From contig CM066987.1 of NCBI GenBank assembly GCA_033977485.1, positions 51,711,033 through 51,775,032 on the forward strand: DNA of 64,000 nt. Reading direction: 5' to 3'. The position numbers were made by a program, and so were the translations under genes. Numbering within the stretch: the stretch's first letter is position 1; each line of letters opens with the position of its first letter. The notes beneath the pieces are model-generated. The model was given only the letters and a program-made list of their open reading frames with translations, ran no database searches and was not told the DNA's origin. Below are positions 26,967 to 55,735 of the stretch, piece after piece. Source of the DNA: Hydrangea macrophylla. Lineage: Eukaryota > Streptophyta > Magnoliopsida > Cornales > Hydrangeaceae.

Positions 26967-29052
26967 TTCCCATGAAAGACAAAGTTATCAACCTGAACCA
27001 ACACATCCTCTAGAATTCCTCTTGGTGCCTTGATTGATCTATCCGCCAGTTGCAAGGTGACACAGGTGGGTTTTAACTCTCCCAAGCCCAATTGTTGGTA
27101 CACTGAGTATGGTAACAAATTGACATTAGATCCAAGATCTAAAAGTGCATTTTGAATCCGTTGCTTTCCTAAGACACAAGAAATTGTTGGGGTGCCAGGA
27201 TCTTTGTATTTTGGAGGCAGATTGTGCTTGATGATTGAACTGACTTATTCTGCCAAATATCCCTTCTTTGTCACACTTTACTTGCGCTTCACGGTGCATA
27301 AGTCTTTCAAGTATTTCGCATATGACGGGACTTGCTGGACCGCATCCAACAAGGATAGGTTGATATGGACCTATTTGAAAAGATCCAGGAATTCTTGGTT
27401 CTTTGCTTCTTTCTGAGGTCTCAACCTTTGAGGGAACGGAGCGGGAAAAGGACATTTAGGCATTTCTATGTCAACTTTTTCCTTTCCCTTTTTGAGTCAC
27501 TCTATTTCCTCCCTATGCTCTTCCTTCAATTTTTCGACTTCTCTTTTCATTTCTTCCTTTAGATGAGCTATTATGGAGGCTAGATTTTCCTCTTATCGGC
27601 TTTTTCTGCTTCCATCTCCTCTAACTCCTTCTCATTCTCTTCTACATCGGCTTTTTTTGCTTCTTTCTCCTCTAACTCCTTCTCATTCTCTTCTTGGAGT
27701 TGCTCTTCCACCTTTTCATCCATTTCATCCTCTTCATGTTCAGAAGGTATTTCATTAGTTCCCACTAACCTTACCACTTCTCAATGTGGTAATGTTCTTG
27801 TACGAGGGTACAAGAACATTAGAACTCTGTTGAGCAAAATTTTGGGTTTGAGGTGCTGGTGGTTGGTATGAAGGTTGAGATTGAGTCTGAGGGGGCTGGA
27901 GGTATTGATTCTGGTAGGATTGGGGTGGCTTGTGCAATTGACTTGAAGATTGGCCAACCACATTGGTAGAGTTAAAGCTTTCGCAACTGGGTTTTTTGGT
28001 ATTACTATAGGGATAATTTGTGGGACCCTTATAGTTATTCATTGCATTCACTCCAGCTGGAGCACTTTCTTTATACACGGGCATATAAGGGCATGCCTGT
28101 GTTGAATGTCCTATGACACTACAATTACCACACGGCTCTGGATTGATCATTTGAGCTGGCGGGCCCACCCTTTGCATTTCCATCTTTCTACCTTTTGCAC
28201 TAACAGTTAAATTTTTGCAGTTAGTTCATCTTCTGCTCTTAACTGAAACACGCTTTTTAGTTTTGATTTCCTGTCCTCCACACTATCTTACCATTGCGGC
28301 ACAATCTCAGCAAGCCATTCAAAAAAGGTTTCTGCTTCTTCCTCATTCTCGATAAGAAAGTCACCTTGGCACATTGTATCAACCAATTTCTTCGATCGTG
28401 GAAGAAGTCCATCATAGAAGAAACTGATTGTGCGTCACTTTTTTAATCCGTACAGTGGATATGACAACAACAGATCCTTGAAGCGTTCCCAAACTTGTGT
28501 GAATGTCTCACCTTCGTTCTAGGAGAATGTCTTGATTTGTCTCAACAAGTTGTTGGTCAAATGGATTGGAAAGGATTTTTTCAAAAAAACTTCTCTCATG
28601 GCATGCCAAGTCAGAATAGAACCCGGACAGAGGGATAAGAACCACGCTTTAGCCTTATCCTTCAAAGAGAAAGGAAAGAGTTTCAAGCGAATGACGTCTG
28701 GTGGGCAAGTCTGGTCTGAAAATGTTCCGCACACATCTTCAAAGTCACGGATGTTAAGATATGCTCGTTCTATGTCCATCCCATAAAAGGTTGGCAAGAA
28801 TTGAATCATGCCATTCTTAAATTAGAATGTACCTCGATGTGGTGGAATCGTGATACACAATGGGGAAGCGGTCCTACCAGGGATTAATAGTTCACGCAAT
28901 GGGCGCAAACCATTATTTATTGGTTAGAAACGATTTTCACCATTTAGACTTTCGACTTCCTCGTTCTCGAAGTTACCACCATTACCCCCGTTTCCATTAT
29001 TAGCCACACTGATAGAGCTTGAAGATAAACTAGAATTTCGGTCAAACAAAGC
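26967..29052 (-). pseudogene. E4 Gag and protease remnant
   Basis: Athila Gag lacking its first eight or so codons, which lie at 44841-44866. Segments: N-terminal Asn/Ser-rich part; gag domain (28519-28809) closely similar to E1 with IQFLPTFYGMD; intact CCHC zinc knuckle CGNCSVIGHSTQAC near 28090-28135; Pro/Gln-rich part; an acidic segment with a 17-residue tandem duplication (27597-27698); protease fragment with [17 protein letters not shown] near 27060-27120. Several stops and frameshifts interrupt it. Homology to Athila ends abruptly near 26967, after the VDNFVF motif. Confidence 0.85.
27597..27698 (-). repeat. 51-bp tandem duplication in E4 gag-pro linker
   Basis: Two adjacent ~51-bp copies starting at 27597 and 27648, each with CTCCTCTAACTCCTTCTCAT, encode a Glu/Lys-rich 17-residue repeat on the minus strand. 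Confidence 0.75.
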
Positions 29053-29663
29053 TGATATGTCCAGAAATATCTTGTAATTGCCTAACCGCCACGTGTTCAG
29101 CTAATGACCCGGGGAAGCCGGATTTGAGGCATGGAGCCCACGCTCCCGAGGGATGCTGCAGTTGCCAACCGAGATACTCGGGCGGTCGTAGTGAGGCCCT
29201 GAGGATCACGGCATTAATCACGTTTCCCCTCAATTCGTTACACAGCTGTCGCTCTATCAAGAGAATCAGTGGTTTCCTTAACTACTTAGGAAACTCACCA
29301 AATATTGGGCAAATCTATTGTGATTAGATTAGGCTTCCTAATCTAATAAAACTTACCATGTAAAGGTGGACTCTTACACTTATAAAAGAGCCCACCTACC
29401 CTCTCAAAGGGGATCCGAGTATCAACTCTCTAAGCAAATACACCTTATAGAAATCACCAACATACACGCATACACCCGGCTGGTATTACTGGTAGTGCCG
29501 CCCCACTTTGTTGGCTCACCAGGCCGCCGGTGATCTGCTAGTGAACGCGCATAGACGCAACCGTGGACGTAGGTCACCTCATTAACGGGGCCGAACCACA
29601 CACAAACCTTCTGTGATCTCGTTTTCTTCTTAAAATTGCCCTCACCAGTTTTCGGCATCATCA
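29053..29663 (+). repeat. E3 5' LTR
   Basis: Direct repeat of 44230-44840 (offset 15177), same length. It contains a G-box CACGTG at 29090-29095 and a TATA box TATAAAAG at 29381-29388, giving a probable transcript start near 29415. Confidence 0.95.
29381..29388 (+). promoter_or_regulatory. TATA box of the E3 5' LTR
   Basis: TATAAAAG in the context ACTTATAAAAGAGCCC. The identical copy in the 3' LTR is at 44558-44565. Confidence 0.75.
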
Positions 29664-29666
29664 GTT

Positions 29667-29684
29667 TGGCGCCATCTGTGGGAA
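29667..29684 (+). other. E3 primer binding site
   Basis: TGGCGCCATCTGTGGGAA starts three bases after the LTR. TGG pairs with the CCA end of a tRNA; I do not assign the tRNA. Confidence 0.75.
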
Positions 29685-29727
29685 TCGACACGATTTCCTT
29701 GTTAACAAAAATCTTTGACTGATCAAC

Positions 29728-32193
29728 ATGCCAAAGAAGAAGGGCAAGAAGACCGCCGATTCAACCGGTCAGGAGGACCTACAGATCGAGGCGCGGGCGA
29801 CCTCCATGACCTCCGACCAGGTCGCAGTAGCGCTGGAGCGGCTCTTGGAAGGCCAGCTCCGGACGCAACAGCAAATAGATGCGCTCATAGCCCAGAATGA
29901 AAAAGTGGTCGAGGACTACGAGAAAAGCCCTTCGTCGGAGAAGCGGCCTGAAAAGAGCACTCCCAGTCAGAGGCCCGAAAGGAGCGCTCCCAGCAAGAAG
30001 CCTGCCCGGTCGCGCGGAAAGACTAGGTCCGCTCCCGGGTCCCAACTAAACCGGGAAAGCCGGGCAGAGGGAGAGCGTAGCCAGCCTGCCAAGCGCCCAC
30101 AGGAAGGACCTCGGTATGTCCCTCGCCGAGCGCGACGAGTAGAGGATGCCCGAATCCTCATCGAACGGCGGCGAGCTGCCAGGGGAGAAGCATCCGGACG
30201 AAAAGTCAGGGAACCGGTCGACGATCCGCCCGCCCTAAGCCGGGATGATCTCAGGCACAGGCTATCCCGGACTCGTAGCCGAGTGCTATCCCCAAGATCG
30301 ACGCGCTTTGAGGACGAGGACGAGGCATCATCGTCCGACCCAACTTACTACTCAGGTGCAGAGAGAAGGATCGGGCGTACTGATGTCAAGGCCCAGGTCG
30401 AGGAGCTGCAGCAGCAGATTGAGAGGCTGAACCGCAAGTCCGGCCACGACCTCACTAATACAGAAACGGAGTCACCCTACACTGCCCGGGTGACACAGTT
30501 CCCGATTCCGCGGAAGTTCAAACCCCCTCATCTCAGCTCATACGACGGCAAGGGGAGTCCAGTGGACCACATCCGCACCTATAAGGCGCAGATGGCACTG
30601 GTCACTACCACGGACGAGTTGTTATGCCTGGCATTCCCCAGTACTTTAAAGGGATCAGCCGCGCAATGGTTCCATGCTCTGAAACCGCAGACGGTTGACG
30701 ATTTCAAGACCCTCGGCAAACTCTTCATCAGTCAGTTTGTCGGGATGCTGGACCGGTCGCAGCCAGACACCCAGCTACTAGCTGTCAAGCAGCAAAGGGG
30801 GGAATCTTTAAGGGAGTACGTAGATCGTTTCAACCAGCAGAGGCTCTTGATTCGCAACCTCAATGAGACTGCCGCCATCATGGCTTTCTGCTCAGGAGTT
30901 CAGCACACCAAGGTGGCCACGTCTTTTCATCGCAATCGACCTGCAACCCTGGTGGAACTCTCGGAAAGAGTGGGGAAGTACATAGACACCGAAGAGTTCC
31001 TGAAGGCAAAGCGCGCCAGCCAGACAGGAGACGAATCCCCAAAAGCAAAGCGCAAACGCGAGGGATTTGAGAAAGGTCCGGGAAAGAAGTCAAAGCAGGA
31101 CCAAAGAGAGGCTAGGGGTCAGCCCCCGATAGCTTTCACACCCCTTTACCGACCCATACATGAGGTGATGGCTGCTGCAGAAGCGCAGAGGCTACTCCCG
31201 CAGCCTACCAAGCTCAGAGCCCCTCCTGGCAAGAGGAATCGGGAGAAGTTCTGCCGCTATCACAAGGACCATGGCCATGAAACGGAGGATTGCTTCAAGT
31301 TGAAAATAGCAATCGAAAAGCTGATCGAGCAGGGCCATCTTGCCGAGTTTGTCACAGCAGACAGACGACCCCGACAGGATGCCCGAGCTCCCGGTCAGCC
31401 CCCTCCACCGCACGGCCACATCAACGTAATCTCCGGAGGAACATCTGGCGGAGGTGATTCACAGTCGGCACGGAAGAGACACGCCCGAGCATCCCGAGCG
31501 GATGTATGGCAGGTCCAATCCACCGGCCCCTCACCAACTGACGTTCTGACATTCTCATCCGATGATGTACAGGGCCTCCACTGCCCCCACGACGACCCGC
31601 TGGTAGTGACACTGTCTATAGCAAACTACGTGGTCAAAAGGGTACTGGTTGACACGGGCAGCTCGTCGGATATAATGTTCGCAGCGGCATTCGACCAACT
31701 CGGGATCGATCGAGATCGGCTCCGGCCAGTTGCTACTCCCCTGGTCGGATTCAATGGCTCTAGCACTCAACCGCTCGGCACGATCGAGCTCCCAGTACTC
31801 ATGGGGACCTATCCACAACAGGTTTCCCTGCTCACCAATTTCGTGATAGTAGACGCCCCGTCGGCCTACAACGTTATCCTGGGGAGGCCGACCCTTAACA
31901 GAGCGCGAGCAGTTGTCTCCACATACAGCCTAACCGTTAAATTCCCGACTCCTCAGGGACCGGGATGCTTGCGAGGAGACCAGACCACGGCTCGGAGTTG
32001 TTATGTTAGCTCGTTGCGACGGGGAGCAGTCACCGAGACTCTAAATATCCAAGAAATGGATCCCCGGGATCCGAGGGACATGATAGGGCCTATGGAAGAA
32101 TTGGAGCAAGTTGTGCTGGATCCGGAACACCCGGATCGGACGATCAGCGTAGGCGCGTTGCTGGAGCCCGCCTTGAAGGAAGAATTGGTCTAG
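29728..32193 (+). CDS. gag: E3 Gag and protease, ending at an in-frame TAG
   Basis: 821 codons from the ATG 44 bp after the primer site. A Lys/Arg/Glu-rich N-terminal part (1-250) precedes the Gag domain (about 255-420, with KFKPPHLSSYDGKGSPVDHI). A zinc-knuckle variant begins at Cys509 (C-x2-H-x4-H-x4-C, typical of Tat). The aspartic protease has DTGSS with Asp at 642 and an LGRPTLNR motif near 708. The frame stops at TAG (32191-32193), but the same frame continues at once with RT sequence, so the stop most likely arose by CAG to TAG. The GC-rich codon use contrasts with neighbouring E4. Confidence 0.85.
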   Translation: MPKKKGKKTADSTGQEDLQIEARATSMTSDQVAVALERLLEGQLRTQQQIDALIAQNEKVVEDYEKSPSSEKRPEKSTPSQRPERSAPSKKPARSRGKTRSAPGSQLNRESRAEGERSQPAKRPQEGPRYVPRRARRVEDARILIERRRAARGEASGRKVREPVDDPPALSRDDLRHRLSRTRSRVLSPRSTRFEDEDEASSSDPTYYSGAERRIGRTDVKAQVEELQQQIERLNRKSGHDLTNTETESPYTARVTQFPIPRKFKPPHLSSYDGKGSPVDHIRTYKAQMALVTTTDELLCLAFPSTLKGSAAQWFHALKPQTVDDFKTLGKLFISQFVGMLDRSQPDTQLLAVKQQRGESLREYVDRFNQQRLLIRNLNETAAIMAFCSGVQHTKVATSFHRNRPATLVELSERVGKYIDTEEFLKAKRASQTGDESPKAKRKREGFEKGPGKKSKQDQREARGQPPIAFTPLYRPIHEVMAAAEAQRLLPQPTKLRAPPGKRNREKFCRYHKDHGHETEDCFKLKIAIEKLIEQGHLAEFVTADRRPRQDARAPGQPPPPHGHINVISGGTSGGGDSQSARKRHARASRADVWQVQSTGPSPTDVLTFSSDDVQGLHCPHDDPLVVTLSIANYVVKRVLVDTGSSSDIMFAAAFDQLGIDRDRLRPVATPLVGFNGSSTQPLGTIELPVLMGTYPQQVSLLTNFVIVDAPSAYNVILGRPTLNRARAVVSTYSLTVKFPTPQGPGCLRGDQTTARSCYVSSLRRGAVTETLNIQEMDPRDPRDMIGPMEELEQVVLDPEHPDRTISVGALLEPALKEELV

Positions 32194-33775
32194 TTCCTGA
32201 AGCAAAACCAGGATGTCTTTGCTTGGAGCCATGAGGACATGCCCGGGATTGATCCCCGAGTGATGTCCCATCACCTCAATGTTAGCCCAGACTGCCGTCC
32301 GGTAAAGCAGAAGAGAAGGGGCATGGCGTCCGAAAGGCAAAAAGCTGTAAGTGAGGAGGTAGAGAAGCTATTAAAAGCTGGCTCCATCAGGGAGGTCCAC
32401 TACCCCGACTGGCTAGCCAACGTTGTGCTGGTCAAGAAGAGCAATGGCAAGTGGAGGATGTGTGTGGACTTCACCGACCTCAACAAGGCCTGTCCTAAGG
32501 ACTGTTATCCGTTGCCCAGGATAGACCTCCTTGTTGATTCAACAGCAGGCCACTCACTCCTGTCGTTCATGGATGCCTACTCGGGGTACAATCAGATCAG
32601 CATGTACCCCGGGGATGAAGAGAAGACAGCGTTCATCACCGACCAAGGCACGTACTGTTACAGGGTCATGCCCTTCGGCCTTAAGAACGTCGGGGCTACA
32701 TACTAGCGCTTGGTCAACTTCATGTTCAAAGATCTTATCGGAAAGTCCATGGAGGTATACGTGGACGATCTCCTGGTCAAGAGCCGAGATGAACCCGATC
32801 ACCTGGAGCATCTGGCCGGGGCCTTCAGCATTTTGAGAAAATTCAGGATGAGGTTGAACCCGGCCAAGTGCACCTTTGGGGTCTCATCCGGGAAGTTCCT
32901 CGGTCATCTGGTCAGCAGACGGGGAATAGAGGCAAACCCTGACAAAATCCAGGCCATCATCAACATGCGGTCACCCAAGTCAACAAAGGAAGTTCAGAGC
33001 TTAGCCGGACGGGTGGCCGCACTGAATAGATTCGTTTCCAGAGCAACCGATCGTTGCCTACCATTCGTTAAAATCCTCCGTAAAGCTTTTCAATGGTCGG
33101 AGGAGTGCGAGGAGGCGTTCCAGGAGCTTAAGAGATACCTGGCCTCTCCACCTCTACTCACGACACCTACGGCCGGAGAGGAACTATTCCTTTACCTGGC
33201 GGTGTCACCATCGGCAGTCAGCTCAGCACTTATTCGGGAAGAGTACGGGATACAGTTCCCAGTGTATTACACCAGCCGAGCGCTGCAGGGCGCAGAAAGC
33301 CGGTACTCTCGCATCGAGAAACTAGCCTTCGCTCTCATTACCTCGGCCCGAAGGCTTCGCCCTTACTTCCAGGCCCATGCCATCATAGTACTGACAGACC
33401 AACCCCTCCGCAAAATTCTCTCTCGGCCGGATACATCCGGCAGGCTCGTCAAGTGGGCTTTGGAACTGGAGGAGTTTGAGGTAACTTACAGACCACGGAC
33501 GGCCATCAAGGGACAAGCCGTCGCAGATTTCTTGGTCGAGTTTACGTATCTAGAAGACCCGATAGAAGAACTCGAGCCTCCGGCCTTACCGCCCGGATTG
33601 CTCGCCGGCATCCCCACATGGATACTGCATGTCGATGGCTCTTCCAACCGGCAGGGCAGTGGGGCCGGAATTATCCTGACCACCCCCGAGGGCATCCAGC
33701 TTGAATATGCTTTGAGATTCGGGTTTCGTGCCTCCAACAACGAGGCCGAGTACGAAGCCCTCCTGGTTGGGCTGC
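32194..33775 (+). pseudogene. E3 reverse transcriptase, RNase H and first half of archaeal RNase H
   Basis: This continues the Gag-protease frame after the TAG. It opens with the FAWSHEDMPGID RT start motif. A second TAG (32704-32706) sits within the RT, before RLVNFMF, where Gln is expected. YVDD is at 32758-32769. The RNase H ends near 33560, and the archaeal-type RNase H begins near 33620 with HVDGSSNRQGSGAG and reaches the NNEAEYEALLVGL motif. There the solo LTR E5 interrupts it at 33775/33776. Confidence 0.9.
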
Positions 33776-34065
33776 TGTAGACACCCCATTTTGTCGGCTA
33801 TCAGATTTAGGAGACCCATAGCTTGGTGGATCACAATGATCGTAAAAGATTCAAAAGGACTCTCGGAAGTCAGCTCTATCTCTCAGAATGCTCAGAATGA
33901 CCAAAATGCCCTTGAAAATCCGAAAATTCCCAGATTTGGTCCCAAAGTTCTGAAAACATACTACGTCGTAAGAAAAGTGATAAAATGAGTTTTTAAATAA
34001 AACCGGAAGAAATCGTCAGCTCCCAGAGACCCCCGGAAGTCCCGGAAGTTCCCCGAAAGTCCCCG

Positions 34066-34132
34066 TTGACCGGTTTGACCAAGGTTTGACCAGGTTTGAC
34101 CAAGGTTTGACCAGGTTTGACCAAGTTTGACC
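34066..34132 (+). repeat. TTGACC (W-box) tandem array in E5
   Basis: Seven TTGACC motifs at 34066, 34075, 34086, 34096, 34107, 34117 and 34127, about every 10 bp, joined by AAG, AGG or CGG-type spacers. More copies lie near 34266-34290. TTGACC/T is the core site of WRKY transcription factors. Confidence 0.85.
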
Positions 34133-34653
34133 AAAATCGTCCGAATTCACCAAAATCATTTTAAATCACGGGAAAAGTGTTAAAACAAGTTCCAAAAAGA
34201 AAATCGAGCGAAAACACCAGCTCCCGGGAACTCCCGGAGGTTTCTAGAACTTCCCGGGAATCCCAGGTTTGACCAGTTTGACCAGAATTTGACTTTGGAA
34301 CCGGGGTGCCGAAACAATTCTCAAATATTTTTCATGGATACTAGAGGTCAATAGCTTTCCAACGGTATATCGCACATAATTTCTGGATTTAAAACGAATT
34401 TATTATGAATTTCCAAAGGCGAAAAAGGCTATCAAATCGGCTTTTATCGCGAATACCGCAAAACTTTTCAAAGTGACCTATCCCCGAACTATTTTTTATG
34501 TAAAGTAGACTCCATTACCTTTCCAACGGTATATCACAACCTCAATTTGGAGTTCATACGCATTTTCTGTGAATTTCGGACGAAATAGGGCCTTTTCGTG
34601 AATACCGGAACATCAGGGGGCCTAAACAGCATTATCCAGACGAAGGGAGGAGC

Positions 34654-34714
34654 AGTGCCGCCGCGGCACTGGCCCACTGCCGCCGCGGCAGTGGCCCAGT
34701 GCCGCCGCGGCACT
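34654..34714. repeat. 22-bp GC-rich palindrome array in E5
   Basis: Three units at exact 22-bp spacing start at 34654, 34676 and 34698. Each contains a 17-mer mirrored around one base, such as AGTGCCGCCGCGGCACT; the middle unit has compensating changes on both arms (ACTGCC/GGCAGT). It lies ~145 bp upstream of the TATA box. Confidence 0.9.
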
Positions 34715-34858
34715 CTCCCCCAGAACAGTGAGTTTTTGTAATTATTTTTGTGGTCCCATTTTGATTAATTAAAAGCCAAAACGACATAGTTTTATGATTT
34801 CAGATGTTTGGAGCCAATGGGAACACTTTTAAAACCCCAAAACCACCCCAAGTTGGCC

Positions 34859-34866
34859 TATATAAA
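34859..34866 (+). promoter_or_regulatory. TATA box of solo LTR E5
   Basis: TATATAAA in the context GGCCTATATAAACACC, a typical plant LTR promoter context. Confidence 0.6.
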
Positions 34867-37086
34867 CACCCCATTACTCCTCATTTTAGGGGAGTAAAAT
34901 GCAAGTTTAGAGAAAGTTTGGGAGAGAAAGTGAAGAGATAAGGTTAGAGTGGAGAGAAAAGAAGCTTTCTTCTTTGATTTTTCAAAACAAAAGTGAGTTT
35001 CTAACTTTGTTTTTACTTCATTACTTCCATTTATTTCAACATTCAATACTCCCAACCACCATTTTAGTGAGCATTCAAGAGTGTGGAAGCTTCTTCCATG
35101 TCTAGTGTCATTACATATGAGTGATACACCAATCTACAAGTCTCATGCTTCATGAATATCATCTATTGATTATCATCTACTTGCTTGATTATATATATGT
35201 TCATCTCTCCTCATCTCATTTCTTTTTATTTTCTTTATTTACTTACTAGTTCATCATCATCTAAGTGATGACATGAAGTTTGGGGTGAGTGAATCCTTAT
35301 GGATAGTAGCTCTTGACCTCAAAAACATGTTTGATAGATGATGATCATAACCTCAATACTTCCAAGGCATTCTTGGAATGTATTGAAGTTATGCCCAAAA
35401 ATAAAATAAATCTCTCCAACAATCTTGGAGATTCTTAATGATGAGTTTGGTGTTAGTATTCTAAGTGGTCATAATCCTTATTGAGTGTTGGAAATATGTT
35501 TTCAAAACATCTATTTCAAAACCCCCTCTCAATCCCTCTCATTTGATTTCAAGAAATAAAACTTTGTTTTCTTCAATATCTCTAAAACAATGACCCAAAA
35601 CAGTGAGCTGTTCAGATTCAGAGATTTGTTTTGAATTAAATACTCAAGTTATGATGATGAAACCACTTGGAAAACCTTCCTAATACAGCATAGTTTGTCC
35701 CTAATTTTTCCCATCAATTATAGAAATATGAGAGTATTTGTTTTGGATGTGAGAAGTTCACATTCATAATCTGCCTCTGTTCTCACAGAATGTTCACCCA
35801 ACTTCTTGCACTTATTCTGGACATTTTCATCACTGTACATATACCTTTTCTATTTTTTTTATAAAACTTGGGTGTCTTAGGAAACTTTTGGTATATAATG
35901 GGTCATCATAAACCTTTTCTTTGATTTATGAAAAATCATACAAAATCAGTCAACAGTGCAGCTTTTGTTTCTGAGTCATGTGTATATTCTGATTTTTTTC
36001 TTTTAATCTGTGATAGCTATTGATGTTTGGCTTTTTGGGTTATTTTCTAGACACAATAAGAATGATCTCAGATTTTTCTCACATTTTTCTAGGCACGTTT
36101 GACCTCCCATTATAATGTTGCAAAGTGCCATATGCAGTCTGTCCACTATTCACAGCAAGCACATTTCAACTTTTATTCTTTGATTTGATGCTCATATGCA
36201 TTCCAAATTAGCTCACATCTTAGGAAGTAGTTCATACTACATTTGTATATATCCCATATTGATTTAATCCATTCATTCATGCACATTTTAGACTTCTAAG
36301 TCATTTTAGAAATCCATGAACACAAAACACACTACAACCTTTGCACATTTTTAGGTTCATACAATACATTCATGCAAGATTTGGGGTTTTTGTAACCCTT
36401 AATCCAAGAAGATTATAAGGAATGAACTTGATCACACGTTCATGCTTCCCCTCGATCTAATCATCCTTTCTCATCCGTCCCGGGGATTGAGAGATCTTCT
36501 TTTCTCAAAAAATAACATGCATCATTCTAGTTTGCTAAGCATATTTTGATTTCTTTAATTATTTGCTTCAAGAACAATTTATGTCCCCTTTAGATTAGGA
36601 AAACTTGATTAATCGATATATGATTAGACGATTTTTCCTAGGTTTATTTGTGTGATTTTCACTTTACATTGTATGATATTTGACTTAGATTTTATGAATG
36701 ATATCTTATCTTTTGATTTTCAATTTCAAGATTCTTATGTGATGTAATATACTATCATAGTATTAATTGTCGAACCAAACCTAGTATAAGATGATTATTT
36801 GGATGCTAATTGAGGCCCGTCGAAAGACGGGGCGAGTAGAGGGTGTTTTAGTCGCGACAAAGGCTCCTTCCTCTCTCGTACCAAAACCCCGAACCAAGTT
36901 CTTTGGTTATGAAGGGCCGGTGCCCTTATCCGCTTGGGTGAGTCAAAATTAGGTTTCTTGGTTCCTTAAAGACCAAGTGGCGACTCTGTATCTGTTTTCA
37001 ACAGACCTTTCGTTTTCTTTCCTTGATTCAAATCAATTTCAAAACAATCTCAACCAGAGAGAAGTGGTCCACTTCCGGTGTCCACA

Positions 37087-38650
37087 GCTGCAATTAGCCG
37101 TTTCGATGAGTGCACAACAGGTCGAGAGCTACAGCGACTCCCAGCTCGTGGTCAATCAAGTAAACCAAGAATACGAAGCACGGGAAGATAGCATGATGGC
37201 CTACTTAGCACTCGTCCGAACAGCGTCCAAACAACTCCAAGGCTTTTCCATCACTCGAATACCCAGAGAAGAGAACACCAGGGCTGACCGGCTCGCCCGC
37301 CTCGCATCGTCGGTTGAGTCAAACTTGCCCGGGATAAGGATACAATTCCTACCCGAGCCAAGTGTGATCAACTCAGAAGGCATGGAGGTCGACCCGGTCA
37401 CTCTGGGACCCAGCTGGATGGATCCGATCATGACTTTCTTGACGACAGGAAGGCTACCGGATGAGAAAGAGGAAGCAAGACGGGTCAAGTACCGAGCAGC
37501 ACGATATTATGTCCTAGACGGTGTCCTTTATAAAAGGGGGTTCACCATCCCGTACCTTCGTTGTGTCCATCCTACGCAGGTTCAAGCAATACTGTACGAA
37601 ATTCACGAAGGCGTGTGCGGGAACCACGTAGGGAGTCGGACACTCTCAAGAAAGGCCCTACTACAGGGGTACTACTGGCCAACCATGGCCCGGGATTCGC
37701 AGGAGTACGTTCGAAGGTGTGACAAGTGCCAACGGTACTCTCCCATGATAAACCAACCAGGAGAACTTCAGACACCGGTCCAAAGCCCTTGGCCATTCGC
37801 CCAATGGGGAATCGACATCGTTGGTCCCTTGCCAACGGGGAAGGGGCAGGTCAAGTTTGCCGTGATAGCCGTTGACTACTTCACAAAGTGGGCGGAGGCC
37901 GAGCCCCTGGCAACAATAACCGAGAGGAAGATGGAACATTTTGTGGAGAGAAATATCCTTAGCAGGTTCGGTATTCCGCGAGTCCTGATTAGCGACAATG
38001 GAAGACAGTTTGATACACCCGTCTTTAGACAGTTCTGCTCAGACTATGGAATACTGAACCACTACTCTTCTCCCGAGCATCCACAAGCTAATGGTCAGGC
38101 CGAAGTAACCAACCGTACGATTTTGCAGTCGATTAAGACGAGGCTCGAAGGTGCTAAAGGCCTGTGGGCCGACGAACTCCCAGCCCTTCTGTGGGCCTAC
38201 CGTACCACACCCCGGGCGGCAACAGGCGAAACCCCCTTTTCCTTGACTTATGGTTTCGAGGCAGTAGTCCCCACGGAGCTCGGGCTACCCACATACCGGG
38301 TAGCCACCTTCAATGACCCAGATAATGGAGAGGCCCTCAGGACGGAACTAGACCTGGTCGAGGAGAAAAGAGACCAAGCCTATCTCAAGGTGGCAGCTTA
38401 CAAGCAAAGGGTCTCACGGTATTACAATAGTAAGGTGAAGCATCGTAGTTTCCAGGTTGGGGACCTTGTTCTTAAAGCAGTGAACCAGTCAACCCGAGTC
38501 CCAAGCCATGGGAAGTTGGGAGCAAACTGGGAAGGACCATATACAGTCACTCGGGTCAACCGACCAGGAACCTACTGGCTACAAAGTATGGATGGGCACG
38601 ACCTCAGTCACCCCTGGAACGTGCAACATCTCCGCAAGTACTATCAGTAG
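37087..38650 (+). pseudogene. E3 second half of archaeal RNase H, and integrase
   Basis: The E3 pol resumes after E5. The archaeal RNase H continues with ESYSDSQLVVNQ and PREENTRADRLARLAS. A linker and the integrase follow: an HHCC zinc domain (37600-37735), then catalytic residues in WGIDIVG (near 37808), SDNG (Asp codon 37994-37996) and QAEVTN (Glu codon 38102-38104). The last two are separated by 35 residues. The C-terminal domain ends LRKYYQ with a stop at 38648-38650. This part has no stops; an ATG at 36977, inside E5, could open the frame but is fortuitous. Confidence 0.9.
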
Positions 38651-38795
38651 CACATAGCTACGGGAGTCTAGTGTTATGAGGAGAATTCTTTTTCTACGTA
38701 GCCTTGATAGGACAATTGTTACAGATTGTTATTTTTTGAATAAAATGGAAAGTTTGCTTTGAAACATTATTCCCTTCGGTACATCAGGCTTACCA

Positions 38796-38886
38796 AAAAG
38801 ACCTCGGGCCTAACCCCGAGGCACCAAAAGACCTCGGGCCTAACCCCGAGGCACCGAAAAGACCTCGGGCCTAACCCCGAGGCACC
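38796..38886 (+). repeat. 30-bp tandem repeat, three copies
   Basis: Copies at 38796-38825, 38826-38855 and 38856-38886 are almost identical. Each contains CCTCGGG and CCCGAGG as a small hairpin. Confidence 0.9.
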
Positions 38887-38895
38887 AAAAGGACC

Positions 38896-39430
38896 CTGCA
38901 ACCACCCATGTTCCAGGTCGGTTTCCTATGGTCGATCCCCAACACGCCCCCTCCTTAACAGGAGCCCTGGGGGCAAAAGGGTCCTACACCTAAACAGGAA
39001 ATTAACTAAAAGCTATGCTTAGGTCCAGCCGACGATGGGGCCAAACCCCTAGGTGGCCAGCGATGGCAAGCTTCAAAAGGAACCTGCAACCACCCATGTT
39101 CCAGGTCGGTTTCCTATGGTCGATCCCCGACACGCCCCCTCCTTAACAGGAGCCCTGGGGGCAAGAGGGTTCCATACCTAAACAGGAAATTAACTAAAGT
39201 TTCGCCTAGGTCCAGCCAGCGATGGGGCCAAAACCCCTAGGTGGCCAATGATGGCAAGCTTCAAATGCTCCTGCAACCACCCATGTTCCAGGTCGATTCC
39301 CTACGGCCATTCAGTCCCGTACTCCCGCACTCCTGCCTTAGCAAGATGCTTGGGGGGGCAGGGGACAGGAGGACAAAGGGTAACGCTAAGGCCAAAACAG
39401 GGAATTATATCATTCGACTAGGTGTTCTGT
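38896..39430 (+). repeat. ~188-bp tandem repeat, two full copies and one diverged copy
   Basis: Units start with CTGCAACCACCCATGTTCCA at 38896, 39084 and 39271 (spacing 188 and 187). The third diverges after ~50 bp. Hypervariable tandem repeats after pol are known in Tat elements and can seed satellite DNA. Confidence 0.85.
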
Positions 39431-39664
39431 GGGTTACGGTCCTAAAGCATTTGCTAAGGCAGATGTTAGGTTGGCCAAGGCCGTACGGATACTAGCAAAA
39501 GTTAAAAGCACAGTACAACAAAAATAACGGAAGGATAACCTCAAGGGCCTTTTCATTAATTAAAATGAGTGTACAAAGCTTGGGGGGCAATTGTAGTAAC
39601 CTCCCCGAAAAATAAAAGTCTACAAACAATAAAAGCAAATAAGCAGGAAGGAGAGACAGAGAAG

Positions 39665-41794
39665 TCAGTTTTCCGCATTAATCACGTTTTCGGTCTCCCC
39701 GACCTGTTCCCCCGGAATGGTAAGTCCCTCCTCCGCTAAGCCTTCCTCCGGGGTAGGCTCGGTGGCCTCAGCAACGACCACAGGATCTCCAACGGCCGCA
39801 AGCCCCTTGCCAGCAGCTGGAGCTTCACCGAGTCCGGGATCCTCACCGATGTCCCAGTAATCCGAGTCGATCCCCACGTAGGCCGAGAGGACCCACTCGG
39901 GATGGTCCCGAGCTACCCGCCGCTTCAGATCCTCATAACCTTGGAAGAAGCCATCGTCAAAAGCTCCCTCCAAGGCCTCTGCGGAAGGTGCCTCGGTCGC
40001 CGCCTTAGCCTGGGCGTCGGCTGCCGCGATGAGGGCCCGGGAAGTTTCCAGTTCGGCCAAAGCCGCTGCCAGGTTCGCCTGAGCCGCCCCTAAGCTCAAG
40101 GCCAGCGACTTCGTCTTGCTCGTCTCCACGGCCAGGGCAGCTTTTGCTACTTGCAGCTCTTTCCGTTCCTCAGAAAGGGCGGCTTCAGCGGCGCCCACCT
40201 TCTCGGCCAGGGATGAGTGGACGGATTCAGATCCCGCAGCTATGCAGCCAACCTACGGCAGGAGAACACACATCGGTTAAACAAGTAGTAAGTGCAGGGC
40301 AAGTCCGCGTTTAAACAAAAAGAAGCAGAACACTCACCAGGTGGGAGACGCTATATAGCCATCCTTGGATCCCTTGGGGGGTTAGCTCGGCACACGCTGT
40401 CACCTGGCTTGGCGCGAGGCAGGGCCTGAGTCTCTCCCGGGCCTCGTCATGCCCGCCCGGGGGCAAACCCGATGGAACATCAGCCATGGGCACGGGCTCT
40501 TCAACAGCCGGCCTGGGGGGAACCGATGCCCCTACGGGACTTGGACGGGTATTGGTCCCGTGGCGAATGCGCCTGAGTGGGCGGTCGCCGCCTGGAACCT
40601 CGGTGGCCGGCCTCTTTCCTTGGGCGATTGCCACCCGAGCGGCAGCAGTGGCGGTAGCGGCGACCTGTCTCTCCCGCAGCTGATCCAAGTTGCGTTTGGG
40701 AGCCATTTCTGTAGAAACAAAGATCGTACGATCAAAGGTGCAAGGGGCAGAAATAGTACAAGTACATGTTACTGGCACACTTACCAGGGATGATGGGTGT
40801 AAAGCTGGGGGCCGGAATAGGCGGCTCAGGGAAATATTTAGCGATGAGCCCTCCCGACCGGGACAGCACGTTCCAGATGCTGGCGGGCAACTTCGCTAGC
40901 TTCAAGATCCTGGCCTGGCACGCCTCAGAAATTTCTGGGGGTTTAGTTGAGCCCGCTGTAAAAAAAAAAAAGAAGAAAACTGGTCAACAATCCGCTGTGT
41001 TCCGGATAGTTCGAGATAGCAGATAAGGTCGGAAGGGCGGTCTTACCCTTCAACTCCCTGGCCCAGGATGTCTTCAGCTGGCTCCCCGGAGCCATGTCAC
41101 AGAGATGAAGGGTAGACACCTGGAAGAATTTTCCCTTCCACCCTTTATTATTACTAGGGCAGTTGTCAATGATTTTCCTGCCCGGACGGGCAGAGAACGA
41201 GAAAAACCCCAACTCATTATGCACAGGGAATGGCCGGTAAGCCCAAAGGAACTCCTGTAGGGTAAGATCATACCCGAACGCCTGGGGCCACAATGATATA
41301 CACCCCATCAAGAACCTCCACCCGTTGGGAGCCAACTGACCGGGAGCGATGTCCAGAAAAATCAATATGTCCCGAGCCACCGGGTGAAGCGGAAGTCGGA
41401 GGCCCGCCATCATAGCGTCCTCAAACAGGGTGACGAACCCTGACTGATATAGGTGCGCGCCGCCGGAATTTACGGCTAGGGCGCAACCGTCAGGAAGGGA
41501 GTACCTCTCCCTAATCCGGCGAAGGTCTCCAGAGTGAAGAACGGAAGAGGTGGACTCACAAGCGAAGACCGTGCGGTCGGTCCCCTCAGGCAGCTCGTCG
41601 CCTAAACCCCTCGAAACGGAGGCGACAGGGGCCTCCTCAGAAGACTGACTACTGGACAGGCGAATGGGGATCCAGGCCCCGCTTTGGTGGTCGGACGGGG
41701 ATTCCGGGAGCTGGCCTTGGCTAGCACCAGGGGACCCCGACCGATACTGCTCACTCTCCGATCTCGACGCGGAATTGAAGCCGGAGTGCTCCAT
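39665..41794 (-). CDS. Antisense gene B of E3: predicted four-exon gene, putative gypsy-type transposon domain
   Basis: Predicted exons on the minus strand: 41794-41047, 40955-40785, 40708-40338 and 40252-39665. All three introns start with GT (GTAAGA, GTAAGT, GTGAGT) and end with AG after pyrimidine-rich sequence. Lengths sum to 1878 bp, an exact multiple of three, and the frame stays open across each junction (625 residues). The start is the first ATG after the TATA box at 42162-42171; the frame is open upstream but without an ATG. Exon 1 resembles the plant 'putative gypsy type transposon' family (Transposase_28), with GLRLPLHPVARDIL and LAPNGWRFLMG. Exon 3 starts basic; exon 4 is Ala/Glu-rich, coiled-coil-like, then acidic. 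A 5' UTR intron is possible. Function unknown; antisense extra ORFs are described in Tat elements. Confidence 0.75.
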
Positions 41795-42623
41795 CTCTGG
41801 CCCTCCGGCAGGAAGGAACCGACACAAAGGACGACTCGCAAAGGGATCGAAAACCCCGAGCCTGATATACAGGGGGGGCAGGGTTACTAACCTGAATGGT
41901 AGCAAGTAGATGCTCCGCAGCACCAGGTAGCACTCTCTCAGAACAACGCAAGGAACACCCGTCCGGTTCAAGTGGGTTAGGGTTCCACCTGACTCGAAAA
42001 ATGCTACGAATCTGAGAAGGAAGAAATCCCACTCCCGCTCAAACCCCACAAGGTTCGTTCTCTCCAGTTTCGCTTCGAAAGGAAAAAGGAACAGGGAAGA
42101 GAAGAAAGAAAGATCAGAGACAAGAGAATCAGGAGGGTGCGCAGGAGGTGGGGCGAGTGCTCCTTATATAAAAGACCTCGAACGGCCCAGATCAGAACAG
42201 ATCCAGCAGTCCAGAAAATATCCCGCCCAAAACCGTCGCTTCGGTCACGTGGGGGGTCGCCTCAAAAGGCGCGCACATTAAATACACAAAAGGACGGTTC
42301 CGTTGGCTTGTGAACGGTTTGGTTACGCCCACGTCTCCATTCGTTAGGATCTAACCTGACCAACGGTTGATTGACGCGTGGTAGCAGCGGTCCAGGCCCG
42401 AGCAACCATAGCCCGGGCGCATTTGCGAGCCGGTCGGGAATTAACCTCACAGAGTTGTACAGAATTGATACACAGTTCAAAGGACTTAATGAAGGAAAAA
42501 GATGGCCTCGGGGACCTTTTTATAAAAGGAAAACTGTACAAAGACGGGAGCAATTATAGTAGCCTTCCCGGTAAAGAAAAAGAGAAGAAAAAATGCACAT
42601 ATGTATGTAAACAGAAAGTGCCC
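41795..42623 (-). other. Promoter and 5' UTR of antisense gene B; spacer to gene A
   Basis: 42157-42284 is the promoter block of gene B. 41795-42161 is its probable leader, which contains a possible small intron (CAG|GTTAGT near 41890). The rest is the 3' flank of gene A. No other gene is seen. Confidence 0.6.
42157..42284 (-). promoter_or_regulatory. Promoter block of antisense gene B (G-box + TATA)
   Basis: On the minus strand: TATTTAATG, a GC-rich part, CACGTG (42246-42251), then TTATATAAGG (42162-42171) 75 bp later. It is homologous over its whole length to 43829-43954 in front of gene A. Confidence 0.75.
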
Positions 42624-43718
42624 TTAAGGTCCTTGGCCCTTCAAAGCCTTGACCTCCTCCTCCAAGGCAGCCACCTTTGCCACCAGCCCCTCAACGGCGA
42701 TCTCCAGAGCGTGGACGTCCACCCCTCGCAGGGCGGAGTCCATCCGCAGCTCGTCACCCGCCTTCTCTACCGCCTGCAAGCGTTCTTCCATGTTCACGAG
42801 AGAGAAATCCGACCATGAGCCCGGCATGCGGGGACCGGTGAATATTTCCGGTCGGCTCCTCTTCGGTGGGGGCTGAGGCTCTTCTTCGACCTCCTTCTCC
42901 TTGCCCTTCCTGGACGGGCCCGGTGGCGGGCTTACATCCTCAGATGAGGAGGAGTCATTGCTGGTGGACAAGGTGACCGGCCCCTCGGGTTGGCCCGTCC
43001 TGCTGGCCGGGCGCGCCCCGGTCGCCATCGACCGGGTATAGCGGCGCGATCCAGATGCCGCAGCGGCAGCGGTTGCAGAAGATGGTCCGACGCCCGAATT
43101 CTCCGCAGGTCTCCCTTTCAAGTAGGAGAATGACATACCGGCCTCAATGGCTTGGTCAAATGCCTCTATGTCATCCTCGGAAGGGACGACTCCACGAAGG
43201 GCGGTGAAAGCCTGTTTGCAGTGGTCGGGATTATAATCCGCAGGAGGGCAGAGACCGTCATTCTCCAGCCAGTTACCAGCAACCAGGACCCAAGGGTACC
43301 GTTGCCAGTTCTTGTTTGGGAAGTCTAGACCTCGGACAAGGTCTTTTCCCTCAGTCTTAGGGCGAAAGTAGGGGCCTCCGTTGTCAATACCCAGTATATA
43401 ACACCTTGCGACGTCGGCGGCCCGGAGAAATAACCCCAGTCGCTCGTTCAGCGCCGAAATCCCCCATAAGAGGCGGGCAACGTTTGGTCGGCATTTGTGT
43501 AGTGGAATCTGCAACCCCTGAAGAAGGTCGCAGAAGGAAACCGGCAGAGGAAAGCGTAATCCCACGATGAGCAGCAGATAGCTGCTAATGAGGAAGAAAG
43601 GAGGGGCTACTTCTTCTCCTTCAGCGAAAGGATGGATCACCACGTCCTCGGGAACTTGGCAATCTTCTCGGAATGCCCTAAGCCCCTCGTCTGATGTTAG
43701 GTCAATGTGGGAGGCCAT
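42624..43718 (-). CDS. Antisense gene A of E3, 364 residues, unknown function
   Basis: An uninterrupted minus-strand frame. The ATG at 43718 lies 116 bp after a TATA box. Residues ~1-190 form a globular part with LIVGLRFPLPVSFCDLL and LLWGISALNERLGLFL. These have the same spacing and character as the matching motifs of gene B (MMAGLRLPLHPVARDIL; FLMGCISLWP), suggesting a distant paralogue in the same plant transposon-protein family. A low-complexity Ser/Ala/Pro part with a basic PPPKRSRPE patch (possible nuclear signal) follows. The C-terminus (about 305-360) is a heptad-like coiled coil rich in Glu, Ala and Leu. No splice sites are needed. Coding in an antisense direction within a retrotransposon suggests a regulatory role, but that is speculation. 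Confidence 0.7.
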   Translation of the reverse strand: MASHIDLTSDEGLRAFREDCQVPEDVVIHPFAEGEEVAPPFFLISSYLLLIVGLRFPLPVSFCDLLQGLQIPLHKCRPNVARLLWGISALNERLGLFLRAADVARCYILGIDNGGPYFRPKTEGKDLVRGLDFPNKNWQRYPWVLVAGNWLENDGLCPPADYNPDHCKQAFTALRGVVPSEDDIEAFDQAIEAGMSFSYLKGRPAENSGVGPSSATAAAAASGSRRYTRSMATGARPASRTGQPEGPVTLSTSNDSSSSEDVSPPPGPSRKGKEKEVEEEPQPPPKRSRPEIFTGPRMPGSWSDFSLVNMEERLQAVEKAGDELRMDSALRGVDVHALEIAVEGLVAKVAALEEEVKALKGQGP

Positions 43719-43828
43719 TTGGTGCAGATAAAAGTTTGGAAAGGCAAAGACAGCAGAGGATAGGAGGCTCGGAGAGTTTGCTCAGGCGATTCAGCTGGTG
43801 TTGTATAGTGAAGAAGCAAGGATAAATA

Positions 43829-43954
43829 GTGCTCCTTATATAAGCAGCACGAACGGTTGGGATCCAATCTGATCGAACGGTTCACGTACTCTCCCGCCGA
43901 AACTGTCGTTTCGGGCACGTGGGGCGTCGCCTCAGGAAGCGTGAGCATTAAATA
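43829..43954 (-). promoter_or_regulatory. Promoter block of antisense gene A (G-box + TATA)
   Basis: G-box CACGTG at 43916-43921 and TATA TTATATAAGG at 43834-43843, 73 bp apart; duplicated as the promoter block of gene B. The stretch 43955-44213 to its right has no gene and includes another CACGTG at 44045-44050. Confidence 0.75.
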
Positions 43955-44213
43955 TGGGATGTGATAGTCTGGTTGTCAGCTGGACGGTTCAGTTACCTCT
44001 TAAACTGGATGCTTTGAGCCCGAACTATGCTTGTAACCAGTAGGCACGTGGCGTCGGGGATCTTAGGCCTGTACAGCTACCGCTCGGTCCTTGCGCCGCC
44101 GGGTCGTCCCGTGATAGCCGTGGTCCGGTGGGGGACCTGGCATTTTCCCGGACGGTCTATGAAGGGCGTTCTTAATTTTCCGACCTCATCTGATAAAGCG
44201 TCATCTCAGCTCT

Positions 44214-44229
44214 GAAAATGGAGGGCAGC
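44214..44229 (+). other. E3 polypurine tract
   Basis: GAAAATGGAGGGCAGC lies directly before the 3' LTR. It is purine-rich and correctly placed to prime plus-strand DNA synthesis. Confidence 0.7.
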
Positions 44230-44840
44230 TGATATGTCCATAAATATCTTGTAATTGCCTAACCGCCACGTGTTCAGCTAATAACCCGGGGAAGCCGGAT
44301 TTGAGGCATGGAGCCCACGCTCCCGAGGGATGCTGCAGTTGCCAACCGAGATACTCGGGCGGTCGTAGTGAGGCCCTGAGGATCACGGCATTAATCACGT
44401 TTCCCCTCAATTCGTTACACAGCTGTCGCTCTATCAAGAGAATCAGTGGTTTCCTTAACTACTTAGGAAACTCACCAAATATTGGGCAAATCTATTGTGA
44501 TTAGATTAGGCTTCCTAATCTAATAAAACTTACCATGTAAAGGTGGACTCTTACACTTATAAAAGAGCCCACCTACCCTCTCAAAGGGGATCCGAGTATC
44601 AACTCTCTAAGCAAATACACCTTATAGAAATCACCAACATACACGCATACACCCGGCTGGTATTACTGGTAGTGCCGCCCCACTTTGTTGGCTCACCAGG
44701 CCGCCGGTGATCTGCTAGTGAACGCGCATAGACGCAACCGTGGACGTAGGTCACCTCATTAACGGGGCCGAACCACACACAAACCTTCTGTGATCTCGTT
44801 TTCTTCTTAAAATTGCCCTCACCAGTTTTCGGCATCATCA
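44230..44840 (+). repeat. E3 3' LTR
   Basis: 611 bp, about two mismatches to 29053-29663, followed by the target duplication AAAGC (44841-44845) and the E4 gag start. Confidence 0.95.
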
Positions 44841-45030
44841 AAAGCTAAGGTAGAATCTACGGACATAAGAAGGAAACCTCCTTGTGTGGATTTTATTTAT
44901 TTATTTTAATTAATTAATTATTTACTATTATTATTATTATTATTATTTTGGAACTATTTACAAAAGAAATAAAAATAGAAATGGGATAAAGATAGAGCAG
45001 GATGACCTAGAGGTTCGTGCTTGGACACCG
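44841..45030 (-). pseudogene. E4 gag start codon and leader
   Basis: On the minus strand the ATG is at 44864-44866. It encodes a Met-Ser start in frame with the E4 gag at 29052, beyond E3. The leader (44867-45030) is very AT-rich with an ATT/TTA run, and has a GTAAAT at the position homologous to the E1 splice donor. Confidence 0.75.
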
Positions 45031-48061: not shown

Positions 48062-49554
48062 TGATGGAAAAATAGGTTTAAAATTGATTTTAAATGTTCA
48101 GCGGAAAAGGTTAAGTTACAAAGACTTATTGGTAGCCCAGATCTACTACTTGTTAACTCTATAGATGCATACTAACAAGAGGGAGAAGAATTATACCTCA
48201 GGTCTTGAACCCAATTCTGAAATCTTCAACCTTCTTGATGATGCAGTAGCCTCCACTAGGTTATCTTCACCCTTATGTCTCCTGCGGATGCTTCCCGAAA
48301 AGACTAGAGATGGTGGGATCTCTAATAAGGAGGATAGGAAGGTTTGGGAAGCCCTAAACAGGTTCTGTTGCTTTCTCATAGGAAAAACGACGATTATTAA
48401 ACCCTGAACGTAGCTGCTCTATATATAGATTTCCAAAACCGACTTTAACCTTCGACCGATCGAAGTGACCTCGATCGATCGAACCTTCGATCGATCGAAA
48501 CACCTTCAATCGATCGAACATGTCAAGACTTCAATCGATCGATCGAACCTGTCTTGACATGATCCTCGTGTGCCTTTCCAAGTTCCTTGTGGAGCTAAGA
48601 GTGGGACCTCCTAGGCTCTTTATTGTTGGCTCAGACCAGTTGTTAATTTTCATGACCAAACTCTTTGATCAGCAAACTAACCAGCTGGTCAGTTAACGTT
48701 TACTCCACTATAAAACAGTAACTGAACTCCAACTCAAAAGAACATATCCGAAGCGATAACTAGACTTGTATGGTGTACTAATGTCCCTCTACCATCAGCA
48801 TTCGTAATCATATTCAGGTAGTCGGATAACTGTTACTGTCAACCTAAATCATGATTACTTCTTTGTTTTTCTTGAGTCCCATTCACCTCTCATGATTACC
48901 AAACATGTTGATAACTACTTATCAACAAGACTGCAGTTCTCAGTAATCAACTTGGTGACATTATCAGGGGAATGCTCACTCTAAATCAGAGGGTAAATTC
49001 TATCTCGACAATATATGTTCACAACCCTGTGAACATGACATACCCAAGATACCCAGGTGTTGATCTTTTATAGACCTCACTGATTGGTAAGTCAAAGCAG
49101 TTATATCCACAGTCTGTGTTCATAATCGTCTCAAGATTGAGAACACGTACCCTATACAAGTAATGAGTTCCTATCGACTGTTGATAGTGTTAAGCGTCAA
49201 TAGGAAAGCTCAGGTTCGTCAATGCACTGTAAGCACTAACATATTAACTAAGAGTTACACTCTAGTGATTGAGATTAATCACTCCATCCAATGGTATTTA
49301 ATCATGCTATAGTGTAGACCTAATGAGGTATCCAGTCTCATCATCCACTGTGACAAGTTCTAAGTATCAGAGGATAGTAATTCATATCTCACTTGTATGT
49401 ATCTCATACACACACGAATTATTACTATAACACTTAAGGATTAACAATCATCTCATAAAATAAACATATACAATGAAATGTAAAACTGATATCCATATAT
49501 TATAAAGTCAATGTCTCATACATAAAGTAATGGTTTGAGGGCACAAACCCAACA
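48062..49554 (-). repeat. E7 3' LTR
   Basis: 1493 bp, plus-strand ends TGATGG and CCCAACA. Minus-strand TATA at 48420-48427. Palindromes of the TTCGATCGATCGAA family at 48452-48557. Relative to the other LTR, two adjacent palindromes near 48532-48548 are merged into one. Confidence 0.92.
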
Positions 49555-55233: not shown

Positions 55234-55584
55234 ATTGATGGGAAAATAGGTTTAAAGCTGATTTTAAAAGTGCAGCAGAAAAGGTTAAGTTACAAAGACT
55301 TATTGGTAGCCTGGATCTACTACTTGTTAACTCTATAGATGCGTACTAACAAGAGGGAGAAGAATTATACCTCAGGTCTTGAACCCAATTCTGAAATCTT
55401 CAACCTTCTTGATGATGCAGCAGCCTCTACTAGGTTGATATGTCTCCTGCGGATGCCTCCCGGAGAGACTAGAGATGGTGGGATCTCTAATAAGGAGGAT
55501 AAGAAAGTTTGGGAAGCCCTAAACAGGTTCTGCAGCTTTCGTATAGAAAAAATGACAATTATTAAACCCTGAACACAGCTACTC

Positions 55585-55592
55585 TATTTATA
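55585..55592 (-). promoter_or_regulatory. TATA box of the E7 5' LTR
   Basis: CTATAAATAG context on the minus strand, the classical plant TATA box. The nearest palindrome ends 25 bp upstream. Confidence 0.75.
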
Positions 55593-55616
55593 GATTTCCA
55601 AAACCGACTTTAACCT

Positions 55617-55735
55617 TCGACCGATCGAAGTGACCTCGATCGATCGAACCTTCGATCGATCGAAACACCTTCAATCGATCGAATATGTCAAGACTTCAAT
55701 TGATCGAAACTAGTTTGATCGATTGAACCTGTCTT
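55617..55735. repeat. Palindrome cluster in the E7 5' LTR
   Basis: Six TTCGATCGATCGAA-family copies or decayed variants; the same array in the 3' LTR has one unit fewer. Confidence 0.85.

Follow-up and report, generated by a model that had tools for sequence, protein, structure and literature searches.

A Retand-type Ty3/gypsy retrotransposon of Hydrangea macrophylla very probably carries, on the strand opposite to gag-pol, an accessory gene organised like a nuclear gene. The gene would be spliced and translated into a CUG-started and an AUG-started form, its introns would be kept by propagation through the sense RNA, and its product would be a nuclear TRP28 protein acting on the element's own family. 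The gene was probably acquired as genomic DNA and subsequently duplicated.

The window, the whole 64,000-nucleotide stretch analysed here, contains a Ty3/gypsy element of 15,788 bp at positions 29053-44840. The genome that was searched comprises 2,221,998,752 bases in 19 contigs. The element has the following parts:

29053..29663, plus strand: 5' LTR, 611 nt, preceded by the target site duplication AAAGC at 29048-29052
29728..38650, plus strand: sense gag-pol with Gag, protease, reverse transcriptase, RNase H, an additional RNase H-like domain and integrase
33776..37086, no strand assigned: insert of 3311 nt with TG...CA ends and GCTGC on either side, within the second RNase H-like domain
44230..44840, plus strand: 3' LTR, 611 nt, followed by the target site duplication AAAGC at 44841-44845

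The target site duplication is 5 bp long and identical on both flanks. The motif TGGCGCC, a candidate primer binding site, begins 3 nt past the 5' LTR. Because two in-frame TAG codons (32191-32193 and 32704-32706) break the sense pol frame, the copy is non-autonomous in its present form, despite LTRs that differ at only 2 of 611 positions. The insert resembles a solo LTR that stems from a different element. In a profile search, the two halves of RVT_3 that it separates were located between RT_RNaseH and Integrase_H2C2, and an additional RNase H-like domain in this place marks Ogre and Retand elements (PMC6317226, in part). The region between pol and the 3' LTR, from 38650 to 44230, measures 5,579 bp and includes an antisense TRP28 reading frame; the range given for Retand elements in a section of PMC11963269 is 2,933-6,566 bp. 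On these sequence characters the host is a Retand-type (Tat) Ty3/gypsy element. Tandem repeats of about 30 and 188 nt are present at 38792-38895 and 38886-39303, between pol and the antisense gene, and similar repeats are described for about half of Retand elements in part of the same survey (PMC11963269). Elsewhere in the window, direct repeats at 48062-48883 and 55236-56064, 93-95% identical and 7.2 kb apart, are probably the LTRs of another element.

The region separating pol from the 3' LTR holds two genes in antisense orientation to gag-pol. That Tat elements can bear additional antisense open reading frames, as the first-pass annotation of this DNA had stated, is already established as a Retand hallmark: sections of the survey report antisense frames in all clusters, with TRP28 in 97% (Vicient 2025, PMC11963269), and place recent Retand elements in eudicots and Liliopsida only. 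The first of the two genes consists of these segments:

41047..41794, minus strand: exon 1 from the ATG, 748 nt, with the PF04195 domain
40956..41046, minus strand: intron 1, 91 nt, GTAAGA...CAG
40785..40955, minus strand: exon 2, 171 nt
40709..40784, minus strand: intron 2, 76 nt, GTAAGT...CAG
40338..40708, minus strand: exon 3, 371 nt
40253..40337, minus strand: intron 3, 85 nt, GTGAGT...TAG
39665..40252, minus strand: exon 4 with the stop codon, 588 nt

The first-pass annotation had proposed four antisense exons joined across three GT-AG introns, with an exon sum divisible by three and a frame open over 626 codons. This structure was recovered in full: the joined exons amount to 1878 nt, which is 625 codons and one stop, and the donors are GTAAGA, GTAAGT and GTGAGT. 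A blind scan for spliced reading frames, which permitted a maximum of three introns, each with a GTRAG donor and a YAG acceptor preceded by pyrimidines, and was run without input of the proposed exons, gave antisense frames of 283, 323, 438 and 625 amino acids with 0, 1, 2 and 3 introns, respectively. The longest spliced frame of the sense strand was 114 amino acids. The GC content is 42-46% in the introns and 58-66% in the exons.

The joined protein belongs to the TRP28/PF04195 family by the Pfam gathering cut-off, as residues 124-186, encoded in exon 1, match PF04195 Transposase_28 with 32.6 bits against a cut-off of 26.2; the first-pass annotation had likened exon 1 to the plant 'putative gypsy type transposon' family. 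Exon 4 encodes an Ala- and Glu-rich stretch followed by the C-terminal motif FDDGFFxGYxDLKRR. The structure prediction of the protein was poor (pLDDT 51), and a Foldseek comparison of the predicted structure with the PDB gave nothing at E <= 0.001. Therefore, the function of the protein rests on published inference, in which passages of PMC11963269 and PMC7264820 propose that proteins of this kind are nuclear regulators linked to DNA. No relative of the gene was found in two scans of a viral contig set or in one scan of genome contigs.

The same exon-intron structure is present in diverged copies of the gene. These were fetched with P0001, a relative from outside this genome, and 30 of the 119 listed matches (11602 candidates) were used; as best matches, they are biased toward intact copies. 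Exon 1 of these copies shares 48-68% identity with the window. Exons 1, 2, 3 and 4 are present in 30, 26, 29 and 28 of the 30 copies, in unchanged order. Splice sites were scored solely in copies whose match extends to the exon edge, and the splice dinucleotide was at the expected position in 124 of 138 testable sites (donors 1-3: 28/30, 23/26 and 21/21; acceptors 1-3: 20/24, 17/19 and 15/18). The splice sites are thus conserved between diverged copies, as expected of a spliced antisense gene. The positions and phases of introns 1-3 are kept, and their lengths vary between 77-87, 68-111 and 70-94 nt, with all classes modulo 3 represented. The similarity to the outside relatives P0001-P0003 does not extend past the donor codons ELxGK. 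Integrase was looked for behind the gene in four diverged copies, with a clear match on the opposite strand in two, a weak one (26%), also on the opposite strand, in one, and none in one; in the window, pol lies behind the antisense gene on the opposite strand.

The median pairwise dN/dS of exons 1-4 is 0.17, 0.28, 0.28 and 0.24, computed from 31, 26, 17 and 21 sequences after exclusion of incomplete matches and restricted to pairs with pS of 0.1-0.65. Over all pairs, pN/pS is 0.31, 0.48, 0.51 and 0.48. Stops make up 0.40-0.58% of codons in the exons of the diverged copies. The two comparisons that the first-pass annotation had suggested, of exon-intron structure and of dN/dS between copies, thus both support the gene, with medians far under 1. 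By these sequence comparisons, the exon-intron structure is old relative to the diverged copies, and the protein has been under purifying selection across them.

Copies of the young subfamily within the same genome provide a different picture. At least 40 full-length matches to the gene have 97-100% identity (40 scored of 4281 candidates), and 28 of the 40 listed, the window included, were aligned; these are the best-scoring, which favours intact ones. The donor GT is kept at all 84 sites, and the AG of acceptor 2 is lost in two copies. A premature stop is present in six copies, in one of them through the sole exon indel. Altogether, 21 copies are free of stops, frameshifts and lost acceptors, and seven are damaged. 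Intron length differs from that of the window in 27 copies, whereas an exon indel is present in only one. The dN/dS is about 0.72 for singletons and 0.91 for changes shared by at least two copies, and reaches 1.17-1.62 in stricter shared classes, which contain few sites. Selection on the antisense protein is not evident among the young copies, where dN/dS is near 1 at shared sites, and it was therefore detected only between diverged copies.

The sequence upstream of the first gene contains a putative promoter and an extension of the reading frame:

42156..42326, minus strand: antisense promoter of the first gene, with CACGTG, GCGGGA and TATATAA (42170-42164)
41795..42067, minus strand: 5' extension of the frame, 91 codons from CTG 42067 to the ATG, the proposed CUG-started N-terminus

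Among the 29 diverged copies with a TATA-like box, CACGTG is located within 220 nt above the box in 24, and GCGGGA 54-56 nt above it in 17. Eight promoters match the pattern GCGSSAAA, which we take to be of the E2F type. The promoter motifs make control of the antisense gene by the cell cycle and through the G-box possible. With its own promoter, an ATG-poor leader, four coding exons and three short introns, the gene has, in its sequence anatomy, the organisation of a nuclear gene.

The second antisense gene, gene B, is located upstream of the first in the same orientation. The features that connect the two genes are:

42624..43718, minus strand: gene B, a single uninterrupted frame, 28% identical to exon 1 over 78 amino acids
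43828..43996, minus strand: promoter region of gene B, homologous to the promoter of the first gene (118 of 171 positions identical, 69%, E 3e-21)
39496..39664, minus strand: 3' region of the first gene, with a homologous counterpart at 42460-42618, which follows gene B

The alignment of the 3' regions scores 96, against a mean of 33.6 (SD 6.1) and a maximum of 58 in 300 shuffles. The PF04195 score of gene B is 14.3 bits, under the cut-off of 26.2. Since gene B is homologous to the first gene in promoter, protein and 3' region, the cassette of promoter, gene and 3' region is, as judged from these homologies, tandemly duplicated as a whole. In 14 of the 30 diverged copies, the 1.5 kb of flank covered upstream of the first gene includes the tail of gene B.

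The earlier reading took the ATG that follows the TATA box as the start of translation. The codon at 41794 is indeed the first ATG, and none occurs over the 376 nt between it and the TATA box of the window, but the selected coding sequence continues upstream to the CTG at 42067-42065. The alignment of outside relatives extends past ATG 41794 into the upstream frame, which was found in all 30 diverged copies. In 30-codon windows going upstream, dN/dS is 0.35, 0.19, 0.21, 0.29, 0.53, 0.32, 0.22 and 0.27, so that values differ between windows, ranging from 0.19 to 0.53 over -240 to -30, and it climbs to 0.71 and 1.01 past about -273. The controls in the same region gave 1.52 and 0.69 for the other two frames and 1.02 for the opposite strand, with 4-8% stops. 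Amino-acid conservation jumps between codons -92 and -91, and codon -91 is the CTG. In a codon profile of 22 of the 31 sequences, those without indels from CTG to ATG, the mean fraction of the top residue is 0.43 for codons -115 to -92 and 0.73 for codons -91 to -1, and stops are present at 19 of 528 codons before the CTG versus 5 of 2002 after it. The conserved upstream frame makes a start at ATG 41794 only unlikely, and this codon, the first ATG, is probably not the first to be translated.

The properties of the site and of the leader are those expected of a non-AUG extension, with in-frame upstream conservation, an AUG-poor leader and a near-cognate codon in good context. The site was located in 29 of the 31 sequences, as CTG in 24, CTA in four and TTG in one. 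It has A at -3 in 29 of 29, while the G at +4 was built into the search pattern, and it is in frame with the ATG in 25 sequences and out of frame in four. The final 246 nt of the leader contain 12 ATGs, compared with 61.2 in dinucleotide shuffles. Out-of-frame ATGs of the leader number 10 against 22.9 +- 4.0 expected, and the lowest of 200 synonymous-codon resamplings was 11; three control windows in exon 1 contained 34, 72 and 44 such ATGs against 38.2, 72.7 and 51.9 expected, which is no deficit. Of the 28 young copies, 24 keep the extension open and in frame, and the other four have a 1-nt indel in it, each within a run of C. We infer that a CUG-started protein of about 716 amino acids is made in addition to an AUG-started form of 625. 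The glyco-Gag of murine leukaemia virus is a parallel for a CUG-started extension with leaky scanning to an AUG. A 5' intron with its donor at CAG/GTTAGT (about 41891) and its acceptor at the AG preceding the ATG was considered and rejected, because most copies preserve this segment at the protein level, free of indels, and other copies have a different sequence in place of GTTAGT.

The strongest alternative, which we regard as unlikely, accepts the same spliced gene but has translation begin solely at ATG 41794. Use of the conserved upstream frame would then depend not on the CUG but on a coding exon further upstream, on a distal promoter or on fusion to gene B. Of the 30 diverged copies, 26 have a GTAAG donor about 300-380 nt above the ATG, and a pyrimidine-rich stretch precedes the conserved frame in most. 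These signals make upstream splicing likely, by which an exon with an ATG could be joined. Gene B has an upstream position in the same orientation, and its tail is present in nearly half of the diverged copies. However, a TATA-like box is present 70-140 nt above the leader donor in 26 of 26 copies, and the leader exon, from the assumed start site on the TATA side to the donor, contains 3 ATGs in 2065 nt over the 26 copies, which renders an upstream coding exon with an ATG less likely. Furthermore, the leader of the window has neither an ATG nor a GTRAG donor, and conservation begins at the CTG codon itself. Alongside the preferred CUG start, most diverged copies would thus have a further leader intron, of which the donor was located; the subfamily of the window seems to have lost it, since its leader lacks GTRAG.

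It is improbable that the region serves mainly as an antisense regulatory RNA, a source of dsRNA or siRNA, with the protein secondary. Such a role has been raised for antisense frames of this region in part of PMC7264820, and a promoter is present. Nevertheless, the constraint tracks codons: the p-distance of exon 1 is 0.215, 0.186 and 0.450 at codon positions 1, 2 and 3, and that of intron 1, 0.412, resembles third positions, while the low dN/dS of 0.17-0.28 is not needed by a non-coding RNA. A chance antisense frame in GC-rich DNA, with introns picked by eye to dodge stops, would be compatible with the young copies alone, in which selection is not clear, but is hardly credible and is ruled out by the 300 dinucleotide shuffles (spliced frames of mean 110 and maximum 274 amino acids versus the real 625), by the dN/dS, and by the conserved exon order, phases and splice sites.

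Based on the anatomy of the gene and its conservation, the life of an accessory gene within the retrotransposon can be proposed. The internal promoter would drive an antisense Pol II transcript, from which the three introns would be spliced out. Translation from CUG 42067 would give the protein of about 716 amino acids, and leaky scanning to AUG 41794 the form of 625. The TRP28-domain protein may be active in the nucleus and influence how its own family is expressed or moves. The element is propagated by its sense RNA, in which the antisense splice sites would be read as reverse complements and remain unused, and the introns would return to DNA in every cycle. The gene probably entered the element as genomic DNA with introns, and a later tandem duplication may have produced gene B. 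Splicing, translation and function of the antisense gene are all predictions at this stage.

The introns would be retained because the genomic RNA is the sense strand, where antisense splice sites go unread; had the gene spread through its own mRNA, they would be gone. This argument was put forward in the first-pass annotation and is supported, as it follows from retrotransposon biology, and diverged copies retain all three introns with unchanged positions and phases, as predicted. The introns suggest that the gene entered as antisense-oriented genomic DNA rather than as a processed copy.

The known systems closest to this gene are the Retand TRP28 frames, which are likewise antisense to gag-pol, located between pol and the 3' LTR, and contain PF04195. 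The difference is that TRP28 here forms the first of four exons, in a gene that probably starts at a non-AUG codon and has been copied in tandem. The survey treats single reading frames; in its searched text, the word 'intron' is absent, and 'exon' and 'spliced' occur in the reference list only (PMC11963269). A limited literature search, with word finds in PMC11963269 and PMC7264820, gave no earlier report of introns in antisense TRP28 frames, and a passage of PMC7264820 urges the study of antisense and spliced transcripts. The gene23 of maize Grande (Gomez-Orte et al. 2013), compared here through passages of the papers citing it (PMC7264820, PMC11963269), is also an antisense accessory gene in the 3' internal region with its own promoter, and encodes a nuclear protein.

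Spliced antisense genes are described for deltaretroviruses, namely HBZ and APH-2, -3 and -4 (PMC10186651, in part). They share with the gene described here, as predicted from its sequence, a spliced antisense transcript in an element that replicates through unspliced sense RNA, and a nuclear accessory protein. In contrast, HBZ is expressed from the 3' LTR, whereas the retrotransposon gene has an internal promoter and three coding introns; no kinship is claimed. Because of this precedent, the principle of a spliced antisense gene would not be wholly new. Plant LTR elements are generally without introns, with Ogre and EVADE as exceptions, according to a section of a 2025 review (PMC12786077). 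Functional introns in a plant LTR retrotransposon are the common feature, predicted from sequence in the present case, but those of Ogre and EVADE are in the sense RNA, whereas these are antisense and invisible to the genomic RNA. We conclude that the novelty lies in the spliced structure, in the tandem arrangement of the cassette and in the probable start at a CUG.

Antisense open reading frames are a hallmark of a widespread lineage of plant retrotransposons. We give even odds to the broader proposition that Retand elements possess an antisense regulator gene that contains introns and has long been conserved, that this gene has a promoter of its own, a leader intron and a CUG start giving two N-terminal forms, that it is kept because reverse transcription reads only the other strand, and that the separate antisense TRP28 and Smc-like frames may in part be exons of one gene. 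If the frames belong together as exons of a single spliced gene that starts at a non-AUG codon, surveys of open reading frames have read fragments, and the proteins tested to date may lack their true ends. The gene would also be a natural case of introns marking the strand that a retroelement leaves uncopied: their loss would report passage through antisense RNA, and their persistence in diverged copies argues against it. The correct open reading frame would make the role of these accessory proteins testable.
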